Source: Noviherbaspirillum sp. L7-7A (GTDB taxonomy: Bacteria; Pseudomonadota; Gammaproteobacteria; Burkholderiales; Burkholderiaceae_D). Taken from it: 64,000 nt of DNA. The stretch is from NCBI RefSeq assembly GCF_019052805.1, contig NZ_JAHQRJ010000001.1, positions 1,736,001-1,800,000 on the forward strand, given 5' to 3'. A program made the translations under genes and the position numbers. The notes below the pieces were generated by a model. That model worked only from the letters and a program-made list of their open reading frames with translations. It had not been told where the DNA came from and did not search any database. The number at the start of each line of letters is the position of its first letter. The stretch's first letter is position 1. Below, piece by piece: positions 42,238 through 58,576 of this stretch.

Positions 42238-42293
<56 letters not shown>

Positions 42294-43923: not shown

Positions 43924-44922
43924 CTATCCCGCCACCGGCAGCAAGCGCAGCCCGGCGCTGTGCCAGCGCCGGCCAGCCTTGTCGATGGCCAGCAGGTCGA
44001 CGCCCTCGATGCCGGCAGCCAGGGCAAGCGAGCGCTTTGCGCCCATCACCATGCAGGCGGTCGACAGCCCGTCGGCCAGGATGCCGGTGGGCGCGACCAC
44101 CGTCACTGCGGCCAGTTCCGCCGGCGAGGCGCCGGTGGCCGGGTCGAAGATATGGTGGCGGCTGAAGTCGGCGCTGAAGGCGCTGGCATAGTCGCCGGAG
44201 GTGGCGACGCAGCGGCCGTCGAGTTCGAGCGCGCCGGCATAGGCGTCTGCCCGGCGCGGGTCGCGTACGCCCAGCGTCCAGGCCCTGCCCTGCCCGGCCT
44301 GGCCGAGCGCGCCGAATTCGCCAGTGTCGATCAGCGCATGGCGGATGCCGCGCGCCGCCAGCGCCGCCCGCGCCAGGTCCAGCGCATGGCCCTGGGCGAT
44401 GCCGTTCAGCGTAATTGCCATGCCGGGGCGCAGGATGACGCCGCCGGCATCCGCGCTCATGCGCCGCCAGCCGATCAGTGGCAGCGCCGGCGCCCGGTCC
44501 AGGCCCTGACGCGCCAGGTCCCACAGCGGCTGGACGGTGATGTCAAAAGCGCCGTCGCTCAGGGCCGACAGCCGGGCCGCTTCCCGCAGCACCGCCAGCA
44601 GATTAGCATTGGGCTGCGCCAGGTACCCATCGCGGTTCAGGGTATGCACCTGGCTGCCTGGCCGGTAAATGCTCATCAGCGCGTCGACCGTGCGCGCCTG
44701 GGACAGCGCATCCGCAATCGCCAGTTCGGCCATGCGCTGATCGTCATGCAGCACCTTGACGCTGATCTCGGTGCCGAAGGCGAGGTCGGCGCCGGCATAC
44801 ATGCGCAGCCTTGCCTGCGGCCCGCGGGCCAGATCGCCGGCGGCCGGCCGCAGCAGGCCCCAGCCCAGCGCGCCGGCCGTGCCCAGACCCATTGCGGCGG
44901 AGAGGAAGGTACGGCGTTGCAT
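43924..44922 (-). CDS. apbE: FAD:protein FMN transferase ApbE
   Basis: The 332-residue product has a Tat-like or Sec N-terminus (MQRRTFLSAAMGLG) and the ApbE motifs: SDGAFDITVQPLWDL, NGIAQGHALDLA, DTGEFGALG and TGILADGLSTACMVMG. ApbE attaches FMN to Thr residues of exported proteins. The NosR-like gene 16 bases upstream encodes a likely substrate. Confidence 0.93.
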   Translation of the reverse strand: MQRRTFLSAAMGLGTAGALGWGLLRPAAGDLARGPQARLRMYAGADLAFGTEISVKVLHDDQRMAELAIADALSQARTVDALMSIYRPGSQVHTLNRDGYLAQPNANLLAVLREAARLSALSDGAFDITVQPLWDLARQGLDRAPALPLIGWRRMSADAGGVILRPGMAITLNGIAQGHALDLARAALAARGIRHALIDTGEFGALGQAGQGRAWTLGVRDPRRADAYAGALELDGRCVATSGDYASAFSADFSRHHIFDPATGASPAELAAVTVVAPTGILADGLSTACMVMGAKRSLALAAGIEGVDLLAIDKAGRRWHSAGLRLLPVAG

Positions 44923-44938
44923 CGCGGCTCCTTTCAGA

Positions 44939-47071
44939 TCAGGCAGACAGGGAATGCACGGGAATGACGCGGGCGCGCTTCTTCTCCATAATCAGCGGCG
45001 CGCACAGGGCGTCGCTCTGGTGGATCACCACGCAGTCCATGCATTGAAAGCAGTCTTCATAGCGTATTCCACCGTCCGGGCGGATCGCCTCGTACTCGCA
45101 GCGGTGGCGGCAGGTCTGGCATGGCTTGCCGCATTCCTTGCGGCGCGGCAGCCAGTCCAGCAGCCGAAAGCGACCCAGCACGGCCAGCCCGGCGCCGAAC
45201 GGGCACAGGTAGCGGCAGAAGAACTTGTAGACCACCGCGCTGCCCAGCAGCAGGCCGCCGGCATACAGCACGAAAGGCCAGGAACGCACGAAGTTGAGGG
45301 TGATCGCGGTCTTGAATGGCTCGGCTTCCACCAGCGCGTCGGTCCAGGCCGGCGCCAGGAACACGCTGGCCAGAATCGCCGCCAGCGCCAGGTACTTCAG
45401 CAGCTTGAGCCGGGCATCGGTGGCACGCCGCAGCCTGATCTGGGGTACCCGCAGCAGGCGCGCCGCCTTGCCGACGAATTCCTGCAGCGCGCCGAACGGG
45501 CACAGCCAGCCGCAGAAGGTGCCACGGCCCCAGACCAGCAGCGACACCAGCACGAAGGCCCACAGCGACACCGACATCGGGTCGTACAGGAAGAAGGACA
45601 GGTCGCGGCCATCGCGCATGGCCTGCAGCAGGCCGGTCAGGTTGACGATGGAAAGCTGGCCCTGGGCATACCAGCCGATGAACAGCGCGGTGAACAGCAG
45701 GTACGCCTGGCGGAACCAGGCGAAGCGGCGCCGGTTGGCCGTCAGCGCTCCCTGCCGCGCCAGCGCGACCGTCAGCACCAGCAGCCCGGCTGCCAGCAGC
45801 GCCAGGTCGGGCCAGCGCTGCCGCCATACCGCAACCCAGGTCCTGTCGTTGGCGGCAGGCGCATCGTAGAAGCGCGCCGGCAGCGCCAGCCGGCTGAAAA
45901 ACTCCCGATGGAAGCGTTCCGGATAGATCATGCCCTTGGCGCGCCTGACCACCAGCGCCAGTTCCAGCGGGTGCGCCAGGTCCAGCCCGGACTGGGCAAT
46001 GATGCGGAATACCCGCAGCGACTTGCCGCGCAGGGCAGGCTCCGTGGTCTTCAGGTCAAGGTCCAGGTCGCGCATCTCGATGGCCAGGCCGTTCTGCTTC
46101 AGCAGCAGGCGATCCGGCGCGGTGCCGGCCACGAAGTCGTCGCCGATGATGCCGTAGCGCCCTTCATACAGCACCAGCAAGGCATGGTCGCCGGGATCGA
46201 GCCGGCCTGACAGCTTGTTCCACGATGCCGGCGTGAGCAGGTTGCGGCCGACGCTGGGCACCGACGCCAGCGCGACATGGAAGTCGCTCATCACGGCGTC
46301 AGGCCGGGCCAGCGCCTCGGCATCGATGCCGGCCGCGGCGGTGTCGGCAAATGCTTCCTCGACCTGGCGGTTGGTCAGCGTCACATGCTGTACCAGCCCT
46401 TCCCTTTGCAATGCCTCGAAGGAGAGACTCTCGAACACATCCGGCTTCAGGCGCGCGATCTGGTCCGGGTCGGCCGCGCCGGCAAAGCCCAGCCTGGCCC
46501 GCGCCACCTTCAGCGCCGACGACAGCACGCTCTGGTTGATGATGCGCACCGAGGCGGTGGCCTTGGCCACGCCGTCGATATGGACCACATTGCCGTCCTG
46601 CTTCGGGCCGGCCCGCGGCGCGGTGTCGATGGCAATGCTCTGGTTCAGCGCCAGGCCGCGATACTGGCTGGCAAAGCGCGCCATTGGCGCCTCGCCCAGG
46701 CCTTCCAGGAATACCGGCTCATGGTGCGACACCACCCGCACGTCAAGGAACTGGCCCTTCGGATCGATTGCCACCAGCAGATTGATCGGCACGCCGGAAA
46801 AGCCGGGCACCGGCGCGAAGTCGATCGACTCGAAGGCATAGCCCACCAGCTCGGTGGCGGTGGCATTCTGGCGCAGCAGCGGCCAGACCGGCAGCGTGGC
46901 GTCGCGCTCGCCCACCATCAGCGGCGACGGGAAATAGCGGGCCATCGCGTCGCGCGTGAGCGCGCCGGCCGCCGCCGGCGCGGCAACGATCCATGCCAGC
47001 AGCAGCCAGGCCAATGCCGCGCGCAGCACGGTGCGCTGGATTGCCCTAGGGCGTGACGGGCTGGACGCCAT
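44939..47071 (-). CDS. NosR-like membrane iron-sulfur flavoprotein
   Basis: The 710-residue product has a signal peptide, a periplasmic FMN-binding domain (about 60-180, probable flavinylated Thr in AKATAS), a periplasmic domain up to about 400, and several membrane helices. It carries cytoplasmic CGWLCPFGALQE and CRYLCPFGAG motifs and a C-terminal ferredoxin-like part (CGKPCQTCRHRC and CFQCMDC). It is a NosR/NirI-type electron-transfer protein. No nitrous oxide reductase gene is near; it sits in the pedF operon. The ATG at 47071 overlaps the preceding gene by 26 bases; an ATG nine codons upstream is possible. Confidence 0.87.
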   Translation of the reverse strand: MASSPSRPRAIQRTVLRAALAWLLLAWIVAAPAAAGALTRDAMARYFPSPLMVGERDATLPVWPLLRQNATATELVGYAFESIDFAPVPGFSGVPINLLVAIDPKGQFLDVRVVSHHEPVFLEGLGEAPMARFASQYRGLALNQSIAIDTAPRAGPKQDGNVVHIDGVAKATASVRIINQSVLSSALKVARARLGFAGAADPDQIARLKPDVFESLSFEALQREGLVQHVTLTNRQVEEAFADTAAAGIDAEALARPDAVMSDFHVALASVPSVGRNLLTPASWNKLSGRLDPGDHALLVLYEGRYGIIGDDFVAGTAPDRLLLKQNGLAIEMRDLDLDLKTTEPALRGKSLRVFRIIAQSGLDLAHPLELALVVRRAKGMIYPERFHREFFSRLALPARFYDAPAANDRTWVAVWRQRWPDLALLAAGLLVLTVALARQGALTANRRRFAWFRQAYLLFTALFIGWYAQGQLSIVNLTGLLQAMRDGRDLSFFLYDPMSVSLWAFVLVSLLVWGRGTFCGWLCPFGALQEFVGKAARLLRVPQIRLRRATDARLKLLKYLALAAILASVFLAPAWTDALVEAEPFKTAITLNFVRSWPFVLYAGGLLLGSAVVYKFFCRYLCPFGAGLAVLGRFRLLDWLPRRKECGKPCQTCRHRCEYEAIRPDGGIRYEDCFQCMDCVVIHQSDALCAPLIMEKKRARVIPVHSLSA

Positions 47072-47876
47072 GCCTGGCGAAGATGCGGCCCATTTCACCC
47101 GAGGCGGTCAGTTCGGCCAGCGCCTGCTGCAGCGCCTGCGCCAGGTCGCGCGCCTCCTTCTTCACCGCCATGCCGATCGCCCAGCCTTGCGAGGGCAGCC
47201 GCTGGAACGCCACCTGCTGGATGCCGAAGCGGGAATCGTCGCGCAGCACCGACTCGATCTCCGAGCGGTGCGCCAGCACGCCGGCCAGCTTGCCGGCCTT
47301 CAGGTCCTGCAGCGCTTCGACCGCGGTCGGATAGATGCGCACCTTGTCGCGGAACTTGCCATCGCCCTCGCCCAGCAGCAGCACGGCGGCGATCGACACC
47401 TTTTCCACGCCGATCTCGCGCCCCTGCAGCGAGTCAAGGCCGTCGAAGCGCGGCACCGCTTCCTTGCTGTAGGCCAGGCGCACGGTCTCGCGGTAGTACG
47501 GCGCGAAGATCTCCACCTTGTCATTGCGGGCGACCAGGAAGCGGTCCACCGGCACATGCAGCATCACGTCGGCCGGTCCGTAGCCGAGGTAATGGCCCTT
47601 CCACACCATGTTGCGCAGGTCGTCGCCCACTTCCTCGCCAGCCGGAAAGGGCAGGAGCGCCATCTTCAGGCCCAGCTTTTTCGCCAGCGCGTCGGCGATA
47701 TCGACATCGATGCCGCCAGCTTCAGAGGAAAACGGCGCCATGTCCTTGTAGACCGCCACCTTGAGGGAGCCGGACTGGCGGATCTTGTCCATGTCGGCGC
47801 TGGCCGGCGCGGACATCGTCAGCGCAACGCAGGCCAGGATCAGTGCGGCCGCGCAGCGGATGAGGGAAAAAAACAT
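47046..47876 (-). CDS. MxaJ-like periplasmic substrate-binding protein of quinoprotein system
   Basis: The 276-residue product has a signal peptide (cut near SAPASA) and the family 3 solute-binding fold: GSLKVAVYKDMAPFSSEAGGIDVDIADALAK, then LAGVLAHRSEIESVL. Such proteins (MxaJ/XoxJ, PQQ-dehydrogenase-associated) accompany PQQ alcohol dehydrogenases and may help their maturation. It lies between pedF and the NosR-like gene. Confidence 0.85.
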   Translation of the reverse strand: MFFSLIRCAAALILACVALTMSAPASADMDKIRQSGSLKVAVYKDMAPFSSEAGGIDVDIADALAKKLGLKMALLPFPAGEEVGDDLRNMVWKGHYLGYGPADVMLHVPVDRFLVARNDKVEIFAPYYRETVRLAYSKEAVPRFDGLDSLQGREIGVEKVSIAAVLLLGEGDGKFRDKVRIYPTAVEALQDLKAGKLAGVLAHRSEIESVLRDDSRFGIQQVAFQRLPSQGWAIGMAVKKEARDLAQALQQALAELTASGEMGRIFARHGVQPVTP

Positions 47877-47937: not shown

Positions 47938-48405
47938 TTACTTCACCTCGCGCCGGGTTTCCAGGTAGGCCTTGATGGCCCATACCGCTTCCTGGTTCAG
48001 CACGCCATCGAACGGCGGCATGTAGACCGCGCCGTTGCGCACCTTGCCCTTGCGCACGCTGGTGCTGAAGTAATCATCGTTGTCCTTGATGCAGGCCTTG
48101 CGCTTTGCTTCGACCTTCTGCGTCATGCAGTCGCGGTCGAGCAGGCGCAGGTCCGGCGCGATGCCGCCCGAAACCGCATCGATCCCGTGGCAGCGTGCGC
48201 AGTTGGCACCATAAGCCGAGGCGCCAACTTTTTGCGCCTCCTTGTTGTCGCGATAAGGATTCTCGGCGGCCCACTTGTCGCCCAGCGGCGGCAGCGACTT
48301 GGTGTCGACCACCTGGGGCGTCACATCGCCATGGGCATGCGCCACCGGCGAGAGGAAGGCGGAAGCCGCCAGGACCAGAGTGCAGAGGAAGGATGTGTTG
48401 CGCAT
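47938..48405 (-). CDS. pedF: Cytochrome c-550 PedF
   Basis: The 155-residue product has a signal peptide ending SPVAHA and one heme c site CARCH. The later RDCMTQKVEAKRKACIKDNDDYF block and distal Met in YMPPFDGVL are typical of the PedF family. PedF accepts electrons from PQQ alcohol dehydrogenases in the periplasm. It is the first gene of the operon and is preceded by a sigma-54 promoter; GGAG precedes the ATG. Confidence 0.92.
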   Translation of the reverse strand: MRNTSFLCTLVLAASAFLSPVAHAHGDVTPQVVDTKSLPPLGDKWAAENPYRDNKEAQKVGASAYGANCARCHGIDAVSGGIAPDLRLLDRDCMTQKVEAKRKACIKDNDDYFSTSVRKGKVRNGAVYMPPFDGVLNQEAVWAIKAYLETRREVK

Positions 48406-48446: not shown

Positions 48447-48461
48447 GCAATTGCCGTGCCA
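48447..48461 (-). promoter_or_regulatory. Sigma-54 promoter of the pedF operon
   Basis: The minus strand reads TGGCACG GCAA TTGC, a full match to the -24/-12 consensus. The expected transcription start is about 30 bases before the pedF start codon. The divergent gene encodes a sigma-54 activator. Confidence 0.88.
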
Positions 48462-48588: not shown

Positions 48589-50571
<1,983 letters not shown>

Positions 50572-50593: not shown

Positions 50594-50610
50594 TGTCCCA
50601 ATTTGCAACA
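50594..50610. promoter_or_regulatory. Candidate activator site (UAS) for the TolQ/ExbD-like operon
   Basis: TGTCCCAATTTGCAACA, an imperfect dyad, is centred about 97 bases upstream of the predicted sigma-54 start. It belongs to the three-member motif set with 48504 and 58453. Confidence 0.5.
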
Positions 50611-50672
50611 GCATTGTTTCCCGCTGGAGCAGCGCGGACGCCGGGCCGGCTTTCTACGGTGTCCGTGCCGCG

Positions 50673-50687
50673 GGGCATGGAAATTGC
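50673..50687 (+). promoter_or_regulatory. Sigma-54 promoter of the TolQ/ExbD-like operon
   Basis: GGGCATG GAAA TTGC keeps the invariant GG and GC with exactly ten bases between them and departs from TGGCACG at the first and sixth base. The predicted start is about 23 bases before the first ATG of the operon. Confidence 0.7.
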
Positions 50688-50721
50688 GTCTGTCTCCCAT
50701 CATAAAAACGATGGAGACACC

Positions 50722-51387
50722 ATGCAGCGCGACGCCGCTTCCGCCGACACGCTTTTCCTGACCTGGCTGGCCTTTGCCGGCGTGCTGCTGTTTGCCGCGG
50801 CGCTGCTATGGCAGTACGGCGTCTGGCGCATGCTGCTCGATGCCGACCCGACCGGCATCACCATGACCATCGTCGTCATCTTCGCCGCAGCCACCCTGTG
50901 GTGCGGCCGCCGCAGCCAGCGGCTGTGCGCCGAGCGCGCCAGCATGGACGGCTGGCGGCGCGGCACGCACGGCAGGCTGCACGGCCACATCGACGATTAC
51001 TTCCGCAACCTGCTGGCGCAACAACCGGCCGACGCAGGCGCGCGCGGCCGCCTGGCCGAGGTGCTGGCCGAACGGCTGCATGGTCCCAACGATGGCGCCT
51101 GGTGGGTCAATGGCATCCAGATCAAGCTGGGCCTTTTGGGCAAGGTGATCGGCTTTTCCATCCTGGCGATCCAGATCTCGCGGCTGGAGAGCTTCGACCC
51201 GAGCCAGACGCAGGACCTGCTCAAGACCCTGACCGGCGGCCTCGGCATCGCGCTCCTGACCACCGCGGTGGGCCTGGTGGCCAACATGCTGCTGGGCCTG
51301 CAGCTGACCCGGCTCGACCGCTGCGCCGATGAACTGCTGGCGGACGCGATGCAGTATGCCGAGACCACGCTCGGACAGGCTACCTGA
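50722..51387 (+). CDS. MotA/TolQ/ExbB-like proton channel protein
   Basis: The 221-residue product has two N-terminal helices (about 10-32 and 45-62), a cytoplasmic helical domain, and two C-terminal helices (about 135-155 and 172-205) with GGLGIALLTTAVGLVANMLLGLQ, the TolQ/ExbB/MotA signature. Such proteins form proton-driven motors with an ExbD/MotB-type partner, here the next gene. GGAGAC precedes the ATG and the stop overlaps the next start by one base. It is too short, and lacks the long cytoplasmic tail, for a Zorya ZorA. Confidence 0.85.
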   Translation: MQRDAASADTLFLTWLAFAGVLLFAAALLWQYGVWRMLLDADPTGITMTIVVIFAAATLWCGRRSQRLCAERASMDGWRRGTHGRLHGHIDDYFRNLLAQQPADAGARGRLAEVLAERLHGPNDGAWWVNGIQIKLGLLGKVIGFSILAIQISRLESFDPSQTQDLLKTLTGGLGIALLTTAVGLVANMLLGLQLTRLDRCADELLADAMQYAETTLGQAT

Positions 51388-51992
51388 TGCCAAGGCGGCG
51401 CAGCCGGCGCGACAGCGATGTCGACCCGTTCTACGACATGCTGTTCAACATCCTGATCGCCTTCGTGTTCTGCTTCATCATCGCGGTGCTGGCAATGAAC
51501 CCGAAGGCGAAGAAGGCAGGCGACGTGCCGGCCAAGGCGGAATTCATCATCACGGTCAGCTGGCCCGACAACGATCCCAACGACATCGACACCTGGGTGC
51601 AGGACCCGGCCGGCAACCTGGCCTGGTTCCGCCAGCGCGAAGGCGGCCTGATGCACCTGGACCGCGACGACCGCGGCACCGTCGGCGACACCCTGCTGGT
51701 CAATGGCCGCGAAGTGATCAATCCGCTGAACCAGGAAGTGGTCACATTGCGCGGCTTTGCGCCCGGCGAATACACCGTCAACGTGCAGTACTACGAAAGC
51801 CGCAACCAGTCGCCGGTGGACGTGACCGTATCCGTGGTCAAGGTCAATCCGCGCGCCGACGTCGTCTATTACGGCAGCGTCAGGCTGCCCGCCAAAGGCG
51901 CGGAGCGCACTGCGGTCCGCTTCACCGTCACCGCCGACGGCGGCGTCGCCGACATCAACACCCTGCCCAAAACCATCGTCCAATCACCATGA
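51387..51992 (+). CDS. ExbD/MotB-like protein with periplasmic beta domain
   Basis: The 201-residue product has a short Arg-rich cytoplasmic start and a single membrane helix preceded by DVDPFYDMLFNILIAF, in which the Asp in YDMLFN has the position of the proton-carrying Asp of ExbD/MotB. The large periplasmic domain (residues 50-200) is beta-rich with DTWVQDPAGN and GEYTVNVQYY, resembling DUF2135/YfaP-like domains rather than OmpA or TonB-type domains. That combination is not one I know from a named system. Confidence 0.75.
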   Translation: MPRRRSRRDSDVDPFYDMLFNILIAFVFCFIIAVLAMNPKAKKAGDVPAKAEFIITVSWPDNDPNDIDTWVQDPAGNLAWFRQREGGLMHLDRDDRGTVGDTLLVNGREVINPLNQEVVTLRGFAPGEYTVNVQYYESRNQSPVDVTVSVVKVNPRADVVYYGSVRLPAKGAERTAVRFTVTADGGVADINTLPKTIVQSP

Positions 51993-52501
51993 CCGATCAT
52001 TCCCTGCTGCTGACCCTGCTTTATGTCGCCCTGGCCTTCCTGCTTTTGCTGCTATGCCTGGCAACGCGCTGGCCGCTGTGGGTCAAGGCCGGCATGGTGT
52101 TGCTGGTGACCGCTTCCTACTTCGTCGCGCAGGCCGCATTCCAGGGCATGCTGGGCTGGCCGGCGCCGAACACGCCGCCGGAGAAATTCGTGCTGCTGGC
52201 GGTGGTGGTGGAAGAGCCCGACAAGGAAAGAAAGCAGCAGGGCGCGCTCTACATCTGGGTCAATGCGCTGCGCGACAACAAGCCGGCGCCGGAGCCGCGG
52301 GCCTACAAGCTGCCCTATGCGCGCGACCTGCATGCGCTGCTGGGCGAGGCGATGAAGAAGAACCGCCAGGGCGTGAGCCAGATCGGCTCGACCGAGCCGC
52401 CGGCGCTGGGCGCCAGCAATTCGTGGCTGCGCAACGCGGCCGACCCGAAGATCAAGATCCGCATCAGCGACGCGCCCTCCCCTCAACTGCCGGAGAAATG
52501 A
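51989..52501 (+). CDS. Membrane protein of the TolQ/ExbD-like operon
   Basis: The 170-residue product has two N-terminal helices (about 5-25 and 31-50) and a soluble C-terminal part of about 115 residues with GALYIWVNALRDNKPAPEPRAYKLPY. I recognise no family. The start overlaps the previous stop (ATGA), and the following lipoprotein starts just after its stop, so the four proteins are probably made together. Confidence 0.75.
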   Translation: MTDHSLLLTLLYVALAFLLLLLCLATRWPLWVKAGMVLLVTASYFVAQAAFQGMLGWPAPNTPPEKFVLLAVVVEEPDKERKQQGALYIWVNALRDNKPAPEPRAYKLPYARDLHALLGEAMKKNRQGVSQIGSTEPPALGASNSWLRNAADPKIKIRISDAPSPQLPEK

Positions 52502-52503
52502 GC

Positions 52504-53208
52504 ATGCGCGCAATCACACTGCTCGCCTGTCTGTTGCTGGCCGGCTGCGGCCCCAGGGACAGCACCTCCTACTTCCCGCTGCAGCCCGGCGCCCACTGGA
52601 CCTATGCGGTAGAGACCGAAAGCGACGGCGCCACCAGCCGCGGCCAGCAGACCATACGCGTGCTCGACGAACGCGTCTACGACGGCAAGCCGCTGTTCAT
52701 CCGGCGCAGCGAGACGCCCGACAACATCGGCGTCGAATACTGGCTGCGGGAACGGCCGGACGGCATCGTACGCATTGCCCAGCGCCTGGACCTGCAGGAA
52801 CAGGCCAGCCTGGATGAAGCGCCGCGCATGGTGCTGAAGCTGCCGCTGAAGATCGGCGACAGCTGGCGCACGCCGACCGTGGCCTACACCGTGCTGCGCA
52901 AGAATGAATATCCGCGCGAGATCAAATACGGCCGCCCTTTGCAGATGACCTACACGGTCGAGGCGCTGGACGAAAAGCTGACGGTTGCCGCCGGCAGCTT
53001 CGAACATTGCGCCCGGGTCGCCGGCCATGCCGAGATGACGCTGTTCACCGACCCGGTACGTGGCTTCAACAAGGTGCCGGTGATCACCACCGAATGGTAT
53101 TGCCGTGGCGTCGGCCTGGTGAAGCTGGAGCGGGTCGAACGCCTTGGCACCACCTTCTACAGTGGCGGCCGTGTGGCGATGGAGCTGGTGGAGTACAAGC
53201 CGCGCTGA
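52504..53208 (+). CDS. Lipoprotein of the TolQ/ExbD-like operon
   Basis: The 234-residue product has a lipobox LLAG-C (Cys15) and a periplasmic domain with YFPLQPGAHWTYAVET, common to exported lipoproteins of unknown function (the PLxxGxxWTY motif), and GSFEHCARV. It may link the motor-like pair to the outer membrane or cell wall. The ATG at 52504 follows GGAG at eight bases; an ATG two codons upstream overlaps the preceding stop. Confidence 0.8.
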   Translation: MRAITLLACLLLAGCGPRDSTSYFPLQPGAHWTYAVETESDGATSRGQQTIRVLDERVYDGKPLFIRRSETPDNIGVEYWLRERPDGIVRIAQRLDLQEQASLDEAPRMVLKLPLKIGDSWRTPTVAYTVLRKNEYPREIKYGRPLQMTYTVEALDEKLTVAAGSFEHCARVAGHAEMTLFTDPVRGFNKVPVITTEWYCRGVGLVKLERVERLGTTFYSGGRVAMELVEYKPR

Positions 53209-53227
53209 AGGCAAGCAGGAACAGTGA

Positions 53228-53263
53228 AAAGCAAAAGGCCCGCTGGTGCGGGCCTTTTGCTTT
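53228..53263. terminator. Bidirectional intrinsic terminator
   Basis: A perfect 16-bp stem (AAAGCAAAAGGCCCGC with its complement) has a 4-base loop and A/T-rich ends on both sides. It can end the lipoprotein operon on the plus strand and the initiator tRNA on the minus strand. Confidence 0.92.
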
Positions 53264-53270
53264 GAAACCT

Positions 53271-53347
<77 letters not shown>

Positions 53348-53601: not shown

Positions 53602-53697
<96 letters not shown>

Positions 53698-54266: not shown

Positions 54267-54297
54267 ATTTCACTGCAACGGCCAATTCAATAGCTAC

Positions 54298-54350
54298 GGC
54301 AACGGCAACGGCAACGGCAACGACAACTGCAACGGCAACTGCAACTGCAG
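54298..54350. repeat. Hexanucleotide microsatellite (GGCAAC), outer flank of element copy 2
   Basis: Four perfect GGCAAC units are followed by five degenerate units (GACAAC, TGCAAC, GGCAAC, TGCAAC and part of another). It is the reverse complement of the GTTGCC tract outside copy 1. Confidence 0.85.
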
Positions 54351-54456: not shown

Positions 54457-56205
54457 TTACAGCGACGACAGCTTGAACACCCAGACCGAACCGCCCTGCT
54501 CCAGGAAGTTCACCTTCTTGGCCACTTCGCCGCCCCACAGCGGCACTGCGCCGCCCCAGCCCGACACCACGGCCACATATTGCGTGCCGCCTTCCTGCCA
54601 GGTGATCGGTGGCGCCACGACGCCGGAGCCGGTCTGGAACTTCCATACTTCCTTGCCTGACTTCGCATCCAGCGCCTTCAGGTAACCTTCAGGCGTGCCA
54701 TAGAACACCAGGTCGCCGGCGGTGGCCAGAACGCCGCCCCACAGCGGCGCATTGTTCTTGACTTCCCAGGCGATCCTGCCGGTCTTGGGATCGATCGCCC
54801 GCAGGGCGCCGATATAGTCGTCGTTCAATGGCTTGATGGTGAAGCCCGCGCCAAGGAAGGCCGCGCCCTTCTTGTAGGTGATGGGCTCGTTCCAGATCTC
54901 CATGCCCCACTCGTTGGCGGGCACGTAGAACAGGTTGGTCTTCGGACTGTAGGCCATCGGCATCTGGTTCTTGCCACCCAGGAAGGACGGCGCGGCAAAC
55001 ACCGACTGGCCCTTCTTGCCATCCGCACCCTTGGTCGGGTCGCCAGGACGGCCCTCGGGCGTGTAGTTCGGCCGGCCGGTCTTCAGGTCGATGCCGGTGG
55101 CCCAGGTGATCTTCTTGACGAAGGGGAAGGCGTTTTCCAGCTTGCCATTGTTGGCGTCGACCACATAGAAGAAGCCGTTGCGGTCGGCCTTGCCGCCCAG
55201 GCGCTTGCCGCCCTGGTCGAAGGTCACGAACTCGTTCACGCCGTCGAAGTCCCAGCCGTCATGCGGCGTGGTCTGGTAGTGCCACTTGATCTGGCCCGTG
55301 GTCACGTCGATGGCAACCGTGGACGAGGAATACAGATTGTCGCCGGGACGCAGATGGCTGTTCCATGGCGAGGGATTGCCGGTGCCGAAGTAAGCAAGGC
55401 CGGTCTTGGGGTCGTATGTGCCACCCAGCCAGGTAGCGGCGCCGCCGGTCTTCCATAGGTCGCCCGGCCAGGTCTTGTTGGTGGTGCCGGAGATGCCGTT
55501 CTCGATGGCCTTGCCGTCGGCGTCATACTTGTAGCCCATGTGGCCTTCGACCATCGGACGCGACCAGACCATCTGGCCTGTCTTCGGATCGCGCGCCTCG
55601 ACGCGCCCCACCACGCCAAACTCGCCACCCGATACGCCGGTCAGCAACAGGCCCTTGGCAATCAGCGGCGCAGCGGTATTGGAGTAGCCGGCAGCGTAGT
55701 CGTCAACCTTCTCTTTCCACACCACCTCGCCGGTGTCCTGGTTCAATGCCACCAGCTGCGCATCCAGGGTGCTGAAGATCACCAGGTTGTCGTATAGCGC
55801 GGCGCCACGGTTGACCACGTCGCAGCAGGGCATGATGCCGTCCGGCAGGCGGTGCTCGTATTTCCACAGCTTGTTGCCGGTCTTGGCATCGAGCGCGAAG
55901 ATGCGCGAGTAAGAGGCAGTGACGAACATCTTGCCGTTATAGATCAGCGGCTGCGACTCCTGGCCGCGCTGCTTTTCGCCGCCAAAGGAGAACGACCATG
56001 CCGGCACCAGCTTGGATACGTTCTTGGTGTTGACCTGGGTCAGCGGCGAAAAGCGCTGGCCGTCCTGGCTGATGCCCCAGTTCAGCACGCTCGCATTGTC
56101 CTTGCCGGTACTCTCCAGCATGGCGTTGGTCACACCTGCCGCCTGCGCGCCGAACGACGCGGACAGGGCCAGGGCAACGAAAATGGCTAAGCTCTTCTTT
56201 TGCAT
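54457..56205 (-). CDS. exaF: Lanthanide-type PQQ-dependent alcohol dehydrogenase (ExaF/PedH-like)
   Basis: The 582-residue product has a signal peptide (cut near AQAAG), the eight-bladed quinoprotein propeller with repeated W-motifs, and the vicinal Cys127-Cys128. The catalytic Asp319 is followed at +2 by Asp321 (GWDFDG). The extra Asp is the known marker of lanthanide-binding XoxF/ExaF/PedH enzymes; calcium enzymes have a non-acidic residue there. Family members oxidise ethanol and other alcohols or aldehydes in the periplasm with PQQ and pass electrons to a cytochrome such as PedF. It is the third gene after ALDH and DUF779. Confidence 0.92.
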
Positions 56206-56731: not shown

Positions 56732-58252
56732 TTAGAAGAAGCCGAGCGCGTTCGGGCTGTAGCTGACCAGCAGGTTCTTGGTCTGCTGATAGTGCTCCAG
56801 CATCATCTTGTGGTTTTCGCGGCCGATGCCGGACTGCTTGTAGCCGCCGAATGCGGCATGGGCCGGGTACAGGTGATAGCAGTTGGTCCAGACGCGGCCA
56901 GCCTGGATCTCGCGGCCGACGCGGAAGGCGCGCGCATTGTCGCGGGTCCAGAGGCCGGCGCCCAGGCCATACAGCGTGTCGTTGGCGATTTCCAGCGCCT
57001 CGGCTTCATCCTTGAACTTGGTCACCGACACCACCGGCCCGAAAATCTCTTCCTGGAAGATGCGCATCTTGTTGTGGCCTTCGAAGATGGTGGGCTTGAC
57101 GTAGTAGCCGCTGGCGAAGTCGCCGTCGAGCATGTTCTGCGCGCCGCCGGTCAGCACCTTGGCGCCTTCCTGGCGGCCGATGTCCAGATAGGACAGGATC
57201 TTTTCCAGCTGCTCCTGCGAAGCCTGGGCGCCGATCATGGTCGACGAATCGAGCGGGTTGCCCTGCTTGATCGCCTCGACCCGCTTGACCGCGCGCTCCA
57301 TGAAGCGGTCATAGATCGATTCCTGCACCAGCACCCGCGACGGGCAGGTGCAGACCTCGCCCTGGTTCAATGCGAACATCGCAAAGCCTTCCAGGCACTT
57401 GTCGAAGAACGCGTCGTCCTTGTCCATCACGTCTTCGAAGAAGATGTTGGGCGACTTGCCGCCCAGTTCCAGCGTCACCGGGATGATGTTCTGCGAGGCG
57501 TATTGCATGATCAGGCGGCCGGTGCCGGTCTCGCCGGTGAAGGCGATCTTGGCGATGCGCTTGCTTGATGCCAGCGGCTTGCCGCATTCCAGGCCAAAGC
57601 CGTTGACGATGTTGATCACGCCCGGCGGCAGCAGGTCGCCGATCAGCTCGATCAGCACCATGATGGAAGCAGGCGTCTGCTCGGCCGGCTTCAACACCAC
57701 GCAGTTGCCCGCGGCCAGCGCCGGCGCCAGCTTCCACACCGCCATCAGGATCGGGAAATTCCACGGAATGATCTGGCCGACCACGCCCAGCGGCTCATGG
57801 AAATGATAGGCATAGGTTTCGGAATCGATCTGCGCAATCGAGCCTTCCTGTGCGCGGATCACGCCGCCGAAATAGCGGAAGTGGTCGATCGCCAGCGGAA
57901 TGTCGGCCGCCATGGTTTCGCGGATGGGCTTGCCGTTGTCGATGGTTTCGGCGGTGGCCAGCAACTGCAGGTTGGCTTCCATGCGGTCGGCGATGCGGTT
58001 CAGGATCAGCGAACGCTCGGCCAGCGAGGTCTTGCCCCAGGCCTTCTTTGCGGCATGGGCGGCGTCCAGCGCCAGTTCCACGTCCTCGGCGGTGGAGCGC
58101 GCCACTTCGCAGAAGGTCTTGCCAATGACAGGGCTGATGTTCTCGAAGTACTGGCCGTTCACGGGCGGAACGAATTTGCCGCCGATGAAGTTGTCATAGC
58201 GCTCCTTGAACGGATTCTTGATGCCGAGCTTGCTGATGTCTGCGAGATTCAT
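56732..58252 (-). CDS. NAD-dependent aldehyde dehydrogenase (AcoD/ExaC type)
   Basis: The 506-residue product has the catalytic Cys in [11 protein letters not shown], the general base Glu in LELGGKSPN, the FTGETGTGR cofactor loop and [19 protein letters not shown]. It oxidises acetaldehyde and similar aldehydes to acids, the second step after alcohol dehydrogenase. It is the first gene of its operon, with GAGGA before the ATG and a sigma-54 promoter about 70 bases upstream. Confidence 0.94.
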
Positions 58253-58321
58253 GGTGTCTTCCTCTTTATCGTGTAATGGGATGGTTGGAGCGATCATTCG
58301 CCTGCTGCCCTGGCTATTAAC

Positions 58322-58336
58322 GCAATCCGTGTGCCA
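58322..58336 (-). promoter_or_regulatory. Sigma-54 promoter of the ALDH-DUF779-exaF operon
   Basis: The minus strand reads TGGCACA CGGA TTGC, a full match to the -24/-12 consensus, giving a leader of about 60 bases. Confidence 0.88.
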
Positions 58337-58452
58337 GCCCGGCGGACATACCGCCGGTCGGCCAAACCCACGGTTTTCCCCAGATGGAGACCTTGCATCG
58401 GCGCTATTGCCGGCGGTGTACCCAGGCTGGCGAGGCACCTGCCTGAACGGCT

Positions 58453-58469
58453 GCTCCCTTTTGCAACAA
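58453..58469. promoter_or_regulatory. Candidate activator site (UAS) for the ALDH promoter
   Basis: TGCTCCCTTTTGCAACA is the third member of the 17-bp motif set and is centred about 150 bases upstream of the predicted start. A further TGTCCC, then TAACA, stands at 58474-58493 and may be a second site. Confidence 0.5.
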
Positions 58470-58551
58470 CACTGTCCCAAGTTGTGATAACAGCGGTGAT
58501 GACACAGTGGACGGCGCATGCCCGCGGGATGACGGCTGCGGCACGGCCAAG

Positions 58552-58576
58552 AAAAAACCGGCACGCGGCCGGTTTT
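58552..58576 (-). terminator. Intrinsic terminator of the beta-propeller/cytochrome b561 operon
   Basis: AAAACCGGC pairs with GCCGGTTTT around a 5-base loop, with a run of six T residues on the minus strand. It starts 28 bases beyond the cytochrome b561 stop codon. Confidence 0.88.

Follow-up and report, generated by a model that had tools for sequence, protein, structure and literature searches.

What does a gene cluster that resembles an ion-driven membrane motor do among the genes of an alcohol-oxidation regulon? The question is raised by a 64,000-nucleotide stretch of DNA from Noviherbaspirillum sp. L7-7A (contig NZ_JAHQRJ010000001.1, positions 1,736,001 to 1,800,000; here called the window, position 1 being its first letter), taken from a genome of 5.2 Mb. 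Four genes, A to D, lie there on the + strand at 50722-53208, overlapping or nearly touching. The original prediction had read them as a sigma-54-driven operon for a proton-driven envelope machine; its observation of the operon is confirmed, and its interpretation is partly supported, correct as to the type of machine and the regulon but silent on a Lys in A and on phage relatives, neither of which it could see. Our own answer, to which we give a probability of about 40%, is that A, B and C form a motor that acts with D. Switched by an AcoR-type activator, R, and sigma-54 together with an alcohol dehydrogenase dependent on pyrroloquinoline quinone (PQQ), it would drive an outer-membrane or periplasmic supply step, most likely the uptake of a lanthanide complex or cofactor.

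50722..51387, + strand: A, MotA/ExbB-like channel subunit, 221 amino acids (aa); near-cut-off match to PF01618 and alignment to ExbB 5sv0
51387..51992, + strand: B, ExbD-like, one transmembrane (TM) helix with invariant Asp17 and an acidic periplasmic domain, 201 aa
51989..52501, + strand: C, two-helix inner-membrane protein, tail ending LPEK, 170 aa
52504..53208, + strand: D, lipoprotein with lipobox LLAGC, C-terminal part DUF3108-like, 234 aa

The close packing described earlier holds in detail, with a 1-base overlap between A and B, a 4-base overlap between B and C, and a 2-base gap between C and D. It is also kept in relatives. A scan of named genomes gave 380 relatives of B, of which the best 80 were kept, and six more loci bring the set used for our counts to 86. 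A is present in 85 of these, B in 86, C in 85 and D in 82, and the arrangement is therefore more than chance. Judged by their titles, the best 80 of the 380 are nearly all Burkholderiales or metagenome-assembled genomes named at a higher rank, with one Vitreoscilla. The B protein of the window is 99% identical to its counterpart in Noviherbaspirillum soli.

The bacterial operon is linked to genes of the PQQ alcohol regulon, as had been proposed. Near the quartet, 61 of the 86 loci have a relative of R, 52 a PedF-like protein and 47 a PQQ-dependent alcohol dehydrogenase, many of these loci sitting on short contigs. A regulon marker occurs in 72 of 80 loci and is missing from 8. At loci of at least 20 kb it occurs in 36 of 37, and 35 of 37 have the dehydrogenase, PedF or the binding protein; L082 is without any. 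Homologues that are never near PQQ or AcoR-type genes had been named in advance as evidence against the idea; we looked at this, and the relatives do lie near such genes. Among 120 close genomes 10 carry a relative of B, and among 399 genomes of the order 7 do, its own genome being counted. The dehydrogenase scores above its cut-off in six of those seven, compared to 89 of the 392 others (one-sided p 9e-4, a value that treats two draws of order genomes as one sample). In all six the enzyme is on the same contig as B and at most 31 kb away. The sole miss, G080, has a B relative at 33% identity, no D match and no dehydrogenase above cut-off.

The neighbours that define this regulon in the window are as follows.

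48589..50571, + strand: R, AcoR-type sigma-54 activator (Pfam GAF, Sigma54_activat and Fis-type helix-turn-helix)
47938..48405, - strand: cytochrome c-550 PedF (TIGR04494 above cut-off), with a sigma-54 site of score 11 at 48461
54457..56205, - strand: PQQ-dependent alcohol dehydrogenase (TIGR03075 above cut-off), lanthanide-type by its Asp319-x-Asp321 motif
56732..58564, - strand: acetaldehyde dehydrogenase ExaC (NF050026 above cut-off), with a sigma-54 site at 58336 and a dyad at 58473

The activator next to the operon is thus of the kind first described. The second Asp of the dehydrogenase motif is a lanthanide mark, a meaning taken from PMC5487730 and placed here by the motif. We considered this Asp as specific evidence for the lanthanide link and rejected it. 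It is present in 43 of the 45 dehydrogenases near the quartet (the other two have Ser), yet all 30 best-scoring dehydrogenase loci of the order share it, and 24 of those 30 come from genomes where B was not found. The enzyme of the window is lanthanide-type by motif, as was claimed, but this does not sharpen the case.

Beyond the order, a profile search at the level of the phylum matched 18 of 398 genomes, two of them just weakly. One family of another class, presumably the alphaproteobacteria, accounts for ten of the 18. Six loci of this family were examined; all have A, B and C, and none has D. In three of them (L213, L215 and L216, from genomes G494, G771 and G797), genes for a metallophosphoesterase and a Ser/Thr kinase stand directly behind A-B-C. 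Azospirillum plasmids also carry B relatives of about 30% identity, at two places per record in seven records (for example NZ_CP032346.1, 301445-301972).

We next ask whether A and B can be a motor. A matches PF01618 (MotA/TolQ/ExbB proton channel) at 21.5 bits, just below the cut-off of 22.9, and its family profile aligns to ExbB (5sv0) over both conserved channel-lining helices (E 0.078). All 55 aligned B sequences have Asp (Asp17) where ExbD has its TM Asp. Two threonines of ExbB, Thr148 and Thr181, are conserved ion-path residues (PMC12215075), and the second is kept in 78 of 79 bacterial A proteins. On these four grounds we call A and B a motor-type pair. Membership of the window's A in PF01618 would rest on the match between bacterial and phage A profiles (E 9e-31) together with phage A proteins that pass the cut-off (L110 at 35.1 and L117 at 28.6 bits; L186, at 20.5, falls below).

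The earlier label of a TolQ/ExbB-like channel survives only in part, since A has four TM segments by hydropathy. Four is the topology of MotA, unlike that of ExbB or TolQ, and MotB has one. At the position of Thr148, moreover, Lys is found in all 79 bacterial A proteins of the named-genome loci, and we therefore name A MotA/ExbB-like with an altered path rather than an ExbB. Viral A proteins have Thr there in 74 of 77 cases, the remaining three lacking the pattern, and Thr also stands at this position in the distant loci L021 and L213 (another class). In a tree of 46 core sequences, the A family lies apart (support 100/99) from five other proteins with PF01618 in its genome, which by labels assigned in this analysis are TolQ, three ExbB-like proteins and one MotA. 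One further MotA-like row was excluded for its missing motif, and the tree raised long-branch warnings.

For B, neither Pfam nor NCBIfam gives an ExbD/TolR family match up to E 1, and Pfam gives no OmpA-like domain match. Outside the membrane, six more acids (Asp66, Asp68, Asp94, Asp95, Glu117 and Glu128) are invariant in 55 of 55 sequences, and B weakly matches the jelly-roll domain of Tk-SP (3afg, E 0.57), a type described as Ca2+-binding in PMC12664993. These acids, along with the Lys found in every bacterial A, could fit a metal- or ion-gated channel or sensor, in which B, binding Ca2+ or Ln3+ through its acidic domain, sets a Lys-plugged channel and reports the metal supply to the regulon. 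We consider this distinctly unlikely, because the 3afg match is not significant, phage B has the same acids while phage A keeps Thr, and the operon is without a signalling partner.

In C, the loop that joins the two helices is positive, which places the tail outside. The tail ends in [LVM]PEK in 77 of 80 bacterial sequences. A hydropathy cut yields the two helices in just 39 of 80 bacterial C proteins and in 70 of 78 viral ones, and Pfam gives no TonB_C match. By its place in the operon, C is a candidate force transducer in the position of TonB or TolA. In D, Cys15 is invariant (21 of 21 aligned) and a lipobox pattern is present in 68 of 77 sequences. Its match to PF21347 (DUF3108-like; E 9e-4) is below the cut-off, and the best hit among solved structures (E 0.0024) is a putative lipoprotein, over profile positions 158-218 only.

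Since D is a lipoprotein whose Cys is invariant, and is present in 82 of 86 loci where receptors are found in just 24, an envelope keeper akin to Tol-Pal is an alternative. The same motor, with C in the TolA position and D acting like Pal, would hold the outer membrane under alcohol or aldehyde disturbance and would take up no metal. We regard this as unlikely, though it is the alternative we take most seriously. D has no peptidoglycan-binding family in Pfam or NCBIfam, and the PedC-type permease that precedes the operon in 26 of 79 loci suits a supply role better.

That permease brings us back to uptake. In those 26 loci its gene shares the strand of A and ends no more than 250 bases upstream of A, in 22 of them no more than 20; the PedC-type query is above the TIGR03861 cut-off. 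According to section 7 of a 2026 review (PMC12997753), PedH-dependent growth of P. putida requires PedA1A2BC, described as the lanthanide ABC transporter, and the outer-membrane step of lanthanide uptake in that organism is called unresolved. Relatives of three TonB-dependent receptors occur in the 24 loci, some as partial or distant matches, and in L021 a receptor gene directly precedes A. Matches of the receptors to siderophore and PqqU families are below cut-off, and we rejected PqqU as their identity (77-105 bits compared to a cut-off of 1200). The permeases and receptors are why we favor a supply role. The earlier argument that the absence of a TonB-like gene speaks against TonB-type energization overlooks both these receptors and C in the TonB/TolA position.

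We infer the following mechanism. A ring of A around an axle of B would make up an ion-driven motor in the inner membrane, of the MotA/ExbB-ExbD kind and powered by a proton motive force or its like. C, through its periplasmic tail ending in LPEK, may serve as the force-transmitting arm in place of TonB or TolA, with D as the putative partner lipoprotein on the envelope side. R and sigma-54 would switch the operon on together with the PQQ/lanthanide alcohol dehydrogenase, and the motor would then power a step, at the outer membrane or in the periplasm, that supplies this enzyme. The cargo would most likely be a lanthanide complex or cofactor that enters via a TonB-dependent receptor.

The regulatory step draws on these elements.

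50673..50688, + strand: sigma-54 promoter-like GGGCATGGAAATTGCG, a consensus match only (9 of 12 positions), 49 bases upstream of A's ATG
50594..50610, no strand assigned: dyad TGTCCCA-ATT-TGCAACA, a candidate activator-binding site proposed from sequence
53229..53262, + strand: terminator hairpin (fold of 53215-53275, -32.8 kcal/mol, z -4.96)

The -24/-12 promoter of the original prediction was set at 50594 and is probably misplaced. There the GG and GC are 12 bases apart rather than 10, so this is not a -24/-12 element; the sequence is the dyad, and the fitting site is that at 50673-50688. A second GG-N10-GC site near the operon, of score 10, falls at 50571, where the regulator gene ends. 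If one mismatch is allowed, the dyad occurs at just two places in the 64 kb, 50594 and 58473, the latter upstream of the aldehyde dehydrogenase operon, and a consensus scan of the window places sigma-54-like sites upstream of A, pedF, exaC and the propeller gene. These dyads and sites support one regulon and suggest that the operon is co-regulated with the PQQ alcohol genes, with the caveat that sites scoring at least 9 number 77 on both strands of the window. Such sites are common, and the one at 50673 is therefore weak by itself. In each of four Noviherbaspirillum loci (L026, L027, L028 and L031), the dyad lies upstream of a site that scores 9 or 10. Across 85 loci, the dyad lies within 400 bases upstream of A in six (these four, L094 and L021), and the sigma-54 site before A is not conserved (mean best score 7.4 compared to 6.7 for shuffles; one locus, L020, was scanned with a wrongly long stretch). 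At the other end of the operon, the strong terminator reported before is found as a hairpin, which is not among the matches of a consensus terminator scan.

Besides the abundance of promoter-like sites, several observations weigh against the supply reading. The NCBIfam name of TIGR03861 is alcohol transporter permease, not lanthanide. The window's own genome has no PedC-type permease above cut-off (best 51 bits compared to 241), its nearest receptor relative is on another contig, and two TonB genes, next to ExbB genes, are already present; PF03544 (TonB_C) is found at four places in this genome, none inside the window. Because this genome has no PedC above cut-off, and neither a permease nor a receptor next to the operon, we give the supply reading only limited weight. 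B occurs in just 6 of the 95 genomes of the order sample that have the dehydrogenase, and the enzyme can therefore do without the operon. In A, the Lys that replaces the path Thr could block or change ion flow. Finally, A, B and C have relatives in phages, and no alcohol link appears among the neighbor families listed for these.

The phage relatives show how far the triad extends. A search with B gave 27 phage records (19 phages by name, of Rhizobium or Sinorhizobium), and isolated Rhizobium phages are among those that carry the triad. In the nine of these 19 that were examined, open reading frames (ORFs) of 138-148 and 141-153 aa flank B, and in three of the nine the triad is interrupted by small ORFs or a homing/HNH endonuclease gene; the triad ORFs are recorded as hypothetical or by number only. 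A scan of viral contigs confirmed 86 of 245 candidates, and 80 loci, kept for encoding B, were counted. In 77 of these 80 an ORF ends where B starts, with the channel motif in 74 of the 77, and an ORF of at least 150 aa follows B in 74 of the 80; the nine missing flanking ORFs lie near contig ends. Single-sequence tblastn gave no match for A in plasmids or phages and none for C in phages, so the relation of both to phage proteins shows only by place and by profile, the bacterial and phage C profiles matching at E 2e-33. These comparisons give good support for A-B-C as a family of its own, common to bacteria and many tailed phages.

In a scan of 132 of 147 neighboring proteins, from 40 of 50 representative viral loci, the first 25 of 106 PHROG families and the first 25 of 64 from Pfam are scattered; they include terminase small subunit, thymidylate synthase, ClpS, Hsp20, sugar epimerase and, twice, RIIB lysis inhibitor. 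Lysis was considered as a general role of the phage triad and set aside because of this scatter; it is a possible role, but not evidently a general one. An Rz-like spanin adjoins the triad in L106. In prophage-like L218 (9010-13529), an endolysin-like gene, a small membrane protein and a trypsin-like lipoprotein protease precede A-B-C, as judged by eye. Trypsin-like proteases also lie near the triad in L187 (4244-5143), L188 (8564-9256), L234 (1077-1724), L235 (593-1303) and, by eye, L110 (11277-12236). A gene for an SbmA/BacA-like peptide importer follows phage C within four genes in L176 (11170-12138), with relatives in L153, L158 and L166.

Since the triad is viral as well, and bacterial A is nested among viral A in the tree (support 85/83), the operon could be a domesticated module whose envelope function, such as excluding other phages, comes from phages and which is only carried in the alcohol cluster. 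We think this improbable: the tree support is modest and comes with long-branch warnings, and the quartet stays with the PQQ regulon in all but one of the longer loci. Defense was also considered for A-D, and a PADLOC scan returned just weak ZorA matches to A.

Some features of the surroundings may be mentioned here. On the opposite strand, one flank of the operon has genes for PedF, a substrate-binding protein, and NosR-like and ApbE-like proteins; the other has the alcohol dehydrogenase, a small protein that we take to be DUF779-like, ExaC (whose true start is probably further inside the ORF as listed), a further protein, presumably cytochrome b561-like, and a beta-propeller protein. ApbE-like genes lie near the quartet in 12 of 86 loci and NosR-like genes in 19 (43924-47098 in the window), and a separate redox route is possible for them. 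Tandem repeats of 6 bases, in 9 to 16 copies matching at 89-100%, occur at 42238-42293, 53602-53696 and 54296-54349, and a tRNA-Met gene at 53271-53347 on the minus strand.

A broader model, which we put forward tentatively, is also compatible with these observations. A-B-C may be a new family of ion-driven envelope motors, wide in tailed phages and shared with Gram-negative bacteria. One group, nearly all Burkholderiales, would have tied it to lanthanide/PQQ alcohol oxidation by adding D and the path Lys, and members of another class would have set it before a phosphoesterase and a Ser/Thr kinase. Bacteria and viruses appear to share a device whose site of action is probably the cell envelope. 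In phages, a motor-like module of just three genes would be a new viral envelope device and, if the model is true, viruses would encode proton-driven machines acting on the envelope of the host. The Lys/Thr swap that nature has made in A is a built-in experiment on how the channel works. In the bacteria that have it, the operon, which combines a motor pair with a lipoprotein and a protein in the position of TonB and is often near PedC-type permeases and receptors, offers a genetic handle on lanthanide passage across the outer membrane. In the open literature, a coverage that leaves most subscription journals outside, we found no account of this operon or of a like phage-encoded motor.

How, then, does the operon compare with known systems? 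Like TonB-ExbB-ExbD, it has a channel subunit, a one-TM subunit with the Asp and a third inner-membrane protein, with receptors nearby in some loci. It differs in that B has no ExbD match and C no TonB_C, C has two TM segments and A four, Lys replaces Thr148, and there is an extra lipoprotein. The clustering of a motor pair, a third protein and a lipoprotein recalls TolQRA-Pal, but A-D have no TolA, TolB or Pal match, the genome has a separate TolQ-like gene, and the operon is tied to one regulon. With the MotA-MotB flagellar stator it shares the topology of four TM segments in A and one in B, whereas B lacks an OmpA-like domain and, with ORFs inspected by eye, no flagellar gene adjoins the operon. 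The likeness to Zorya is a weak match of ZorA to A (E 0.0029) and to the phage A profile (E 0.0019); PADLOC matches neither ZorB nor any further Zor protein to B, C or D, and A is short, at 221 aa, whereas ZorA has a long tail. With the ped/exa PQQ alcohol regulons it shares its setting. The words MotA, ExbD, proton channel and lipoprotein are absent from the main text of the 2026 review, which deals with Pseudomonas ped clusters; around the quartet stand PedF, a PQQ-dependent alcohol dehydrogenase, an AcoR-type regulator and a PedC-type permease.

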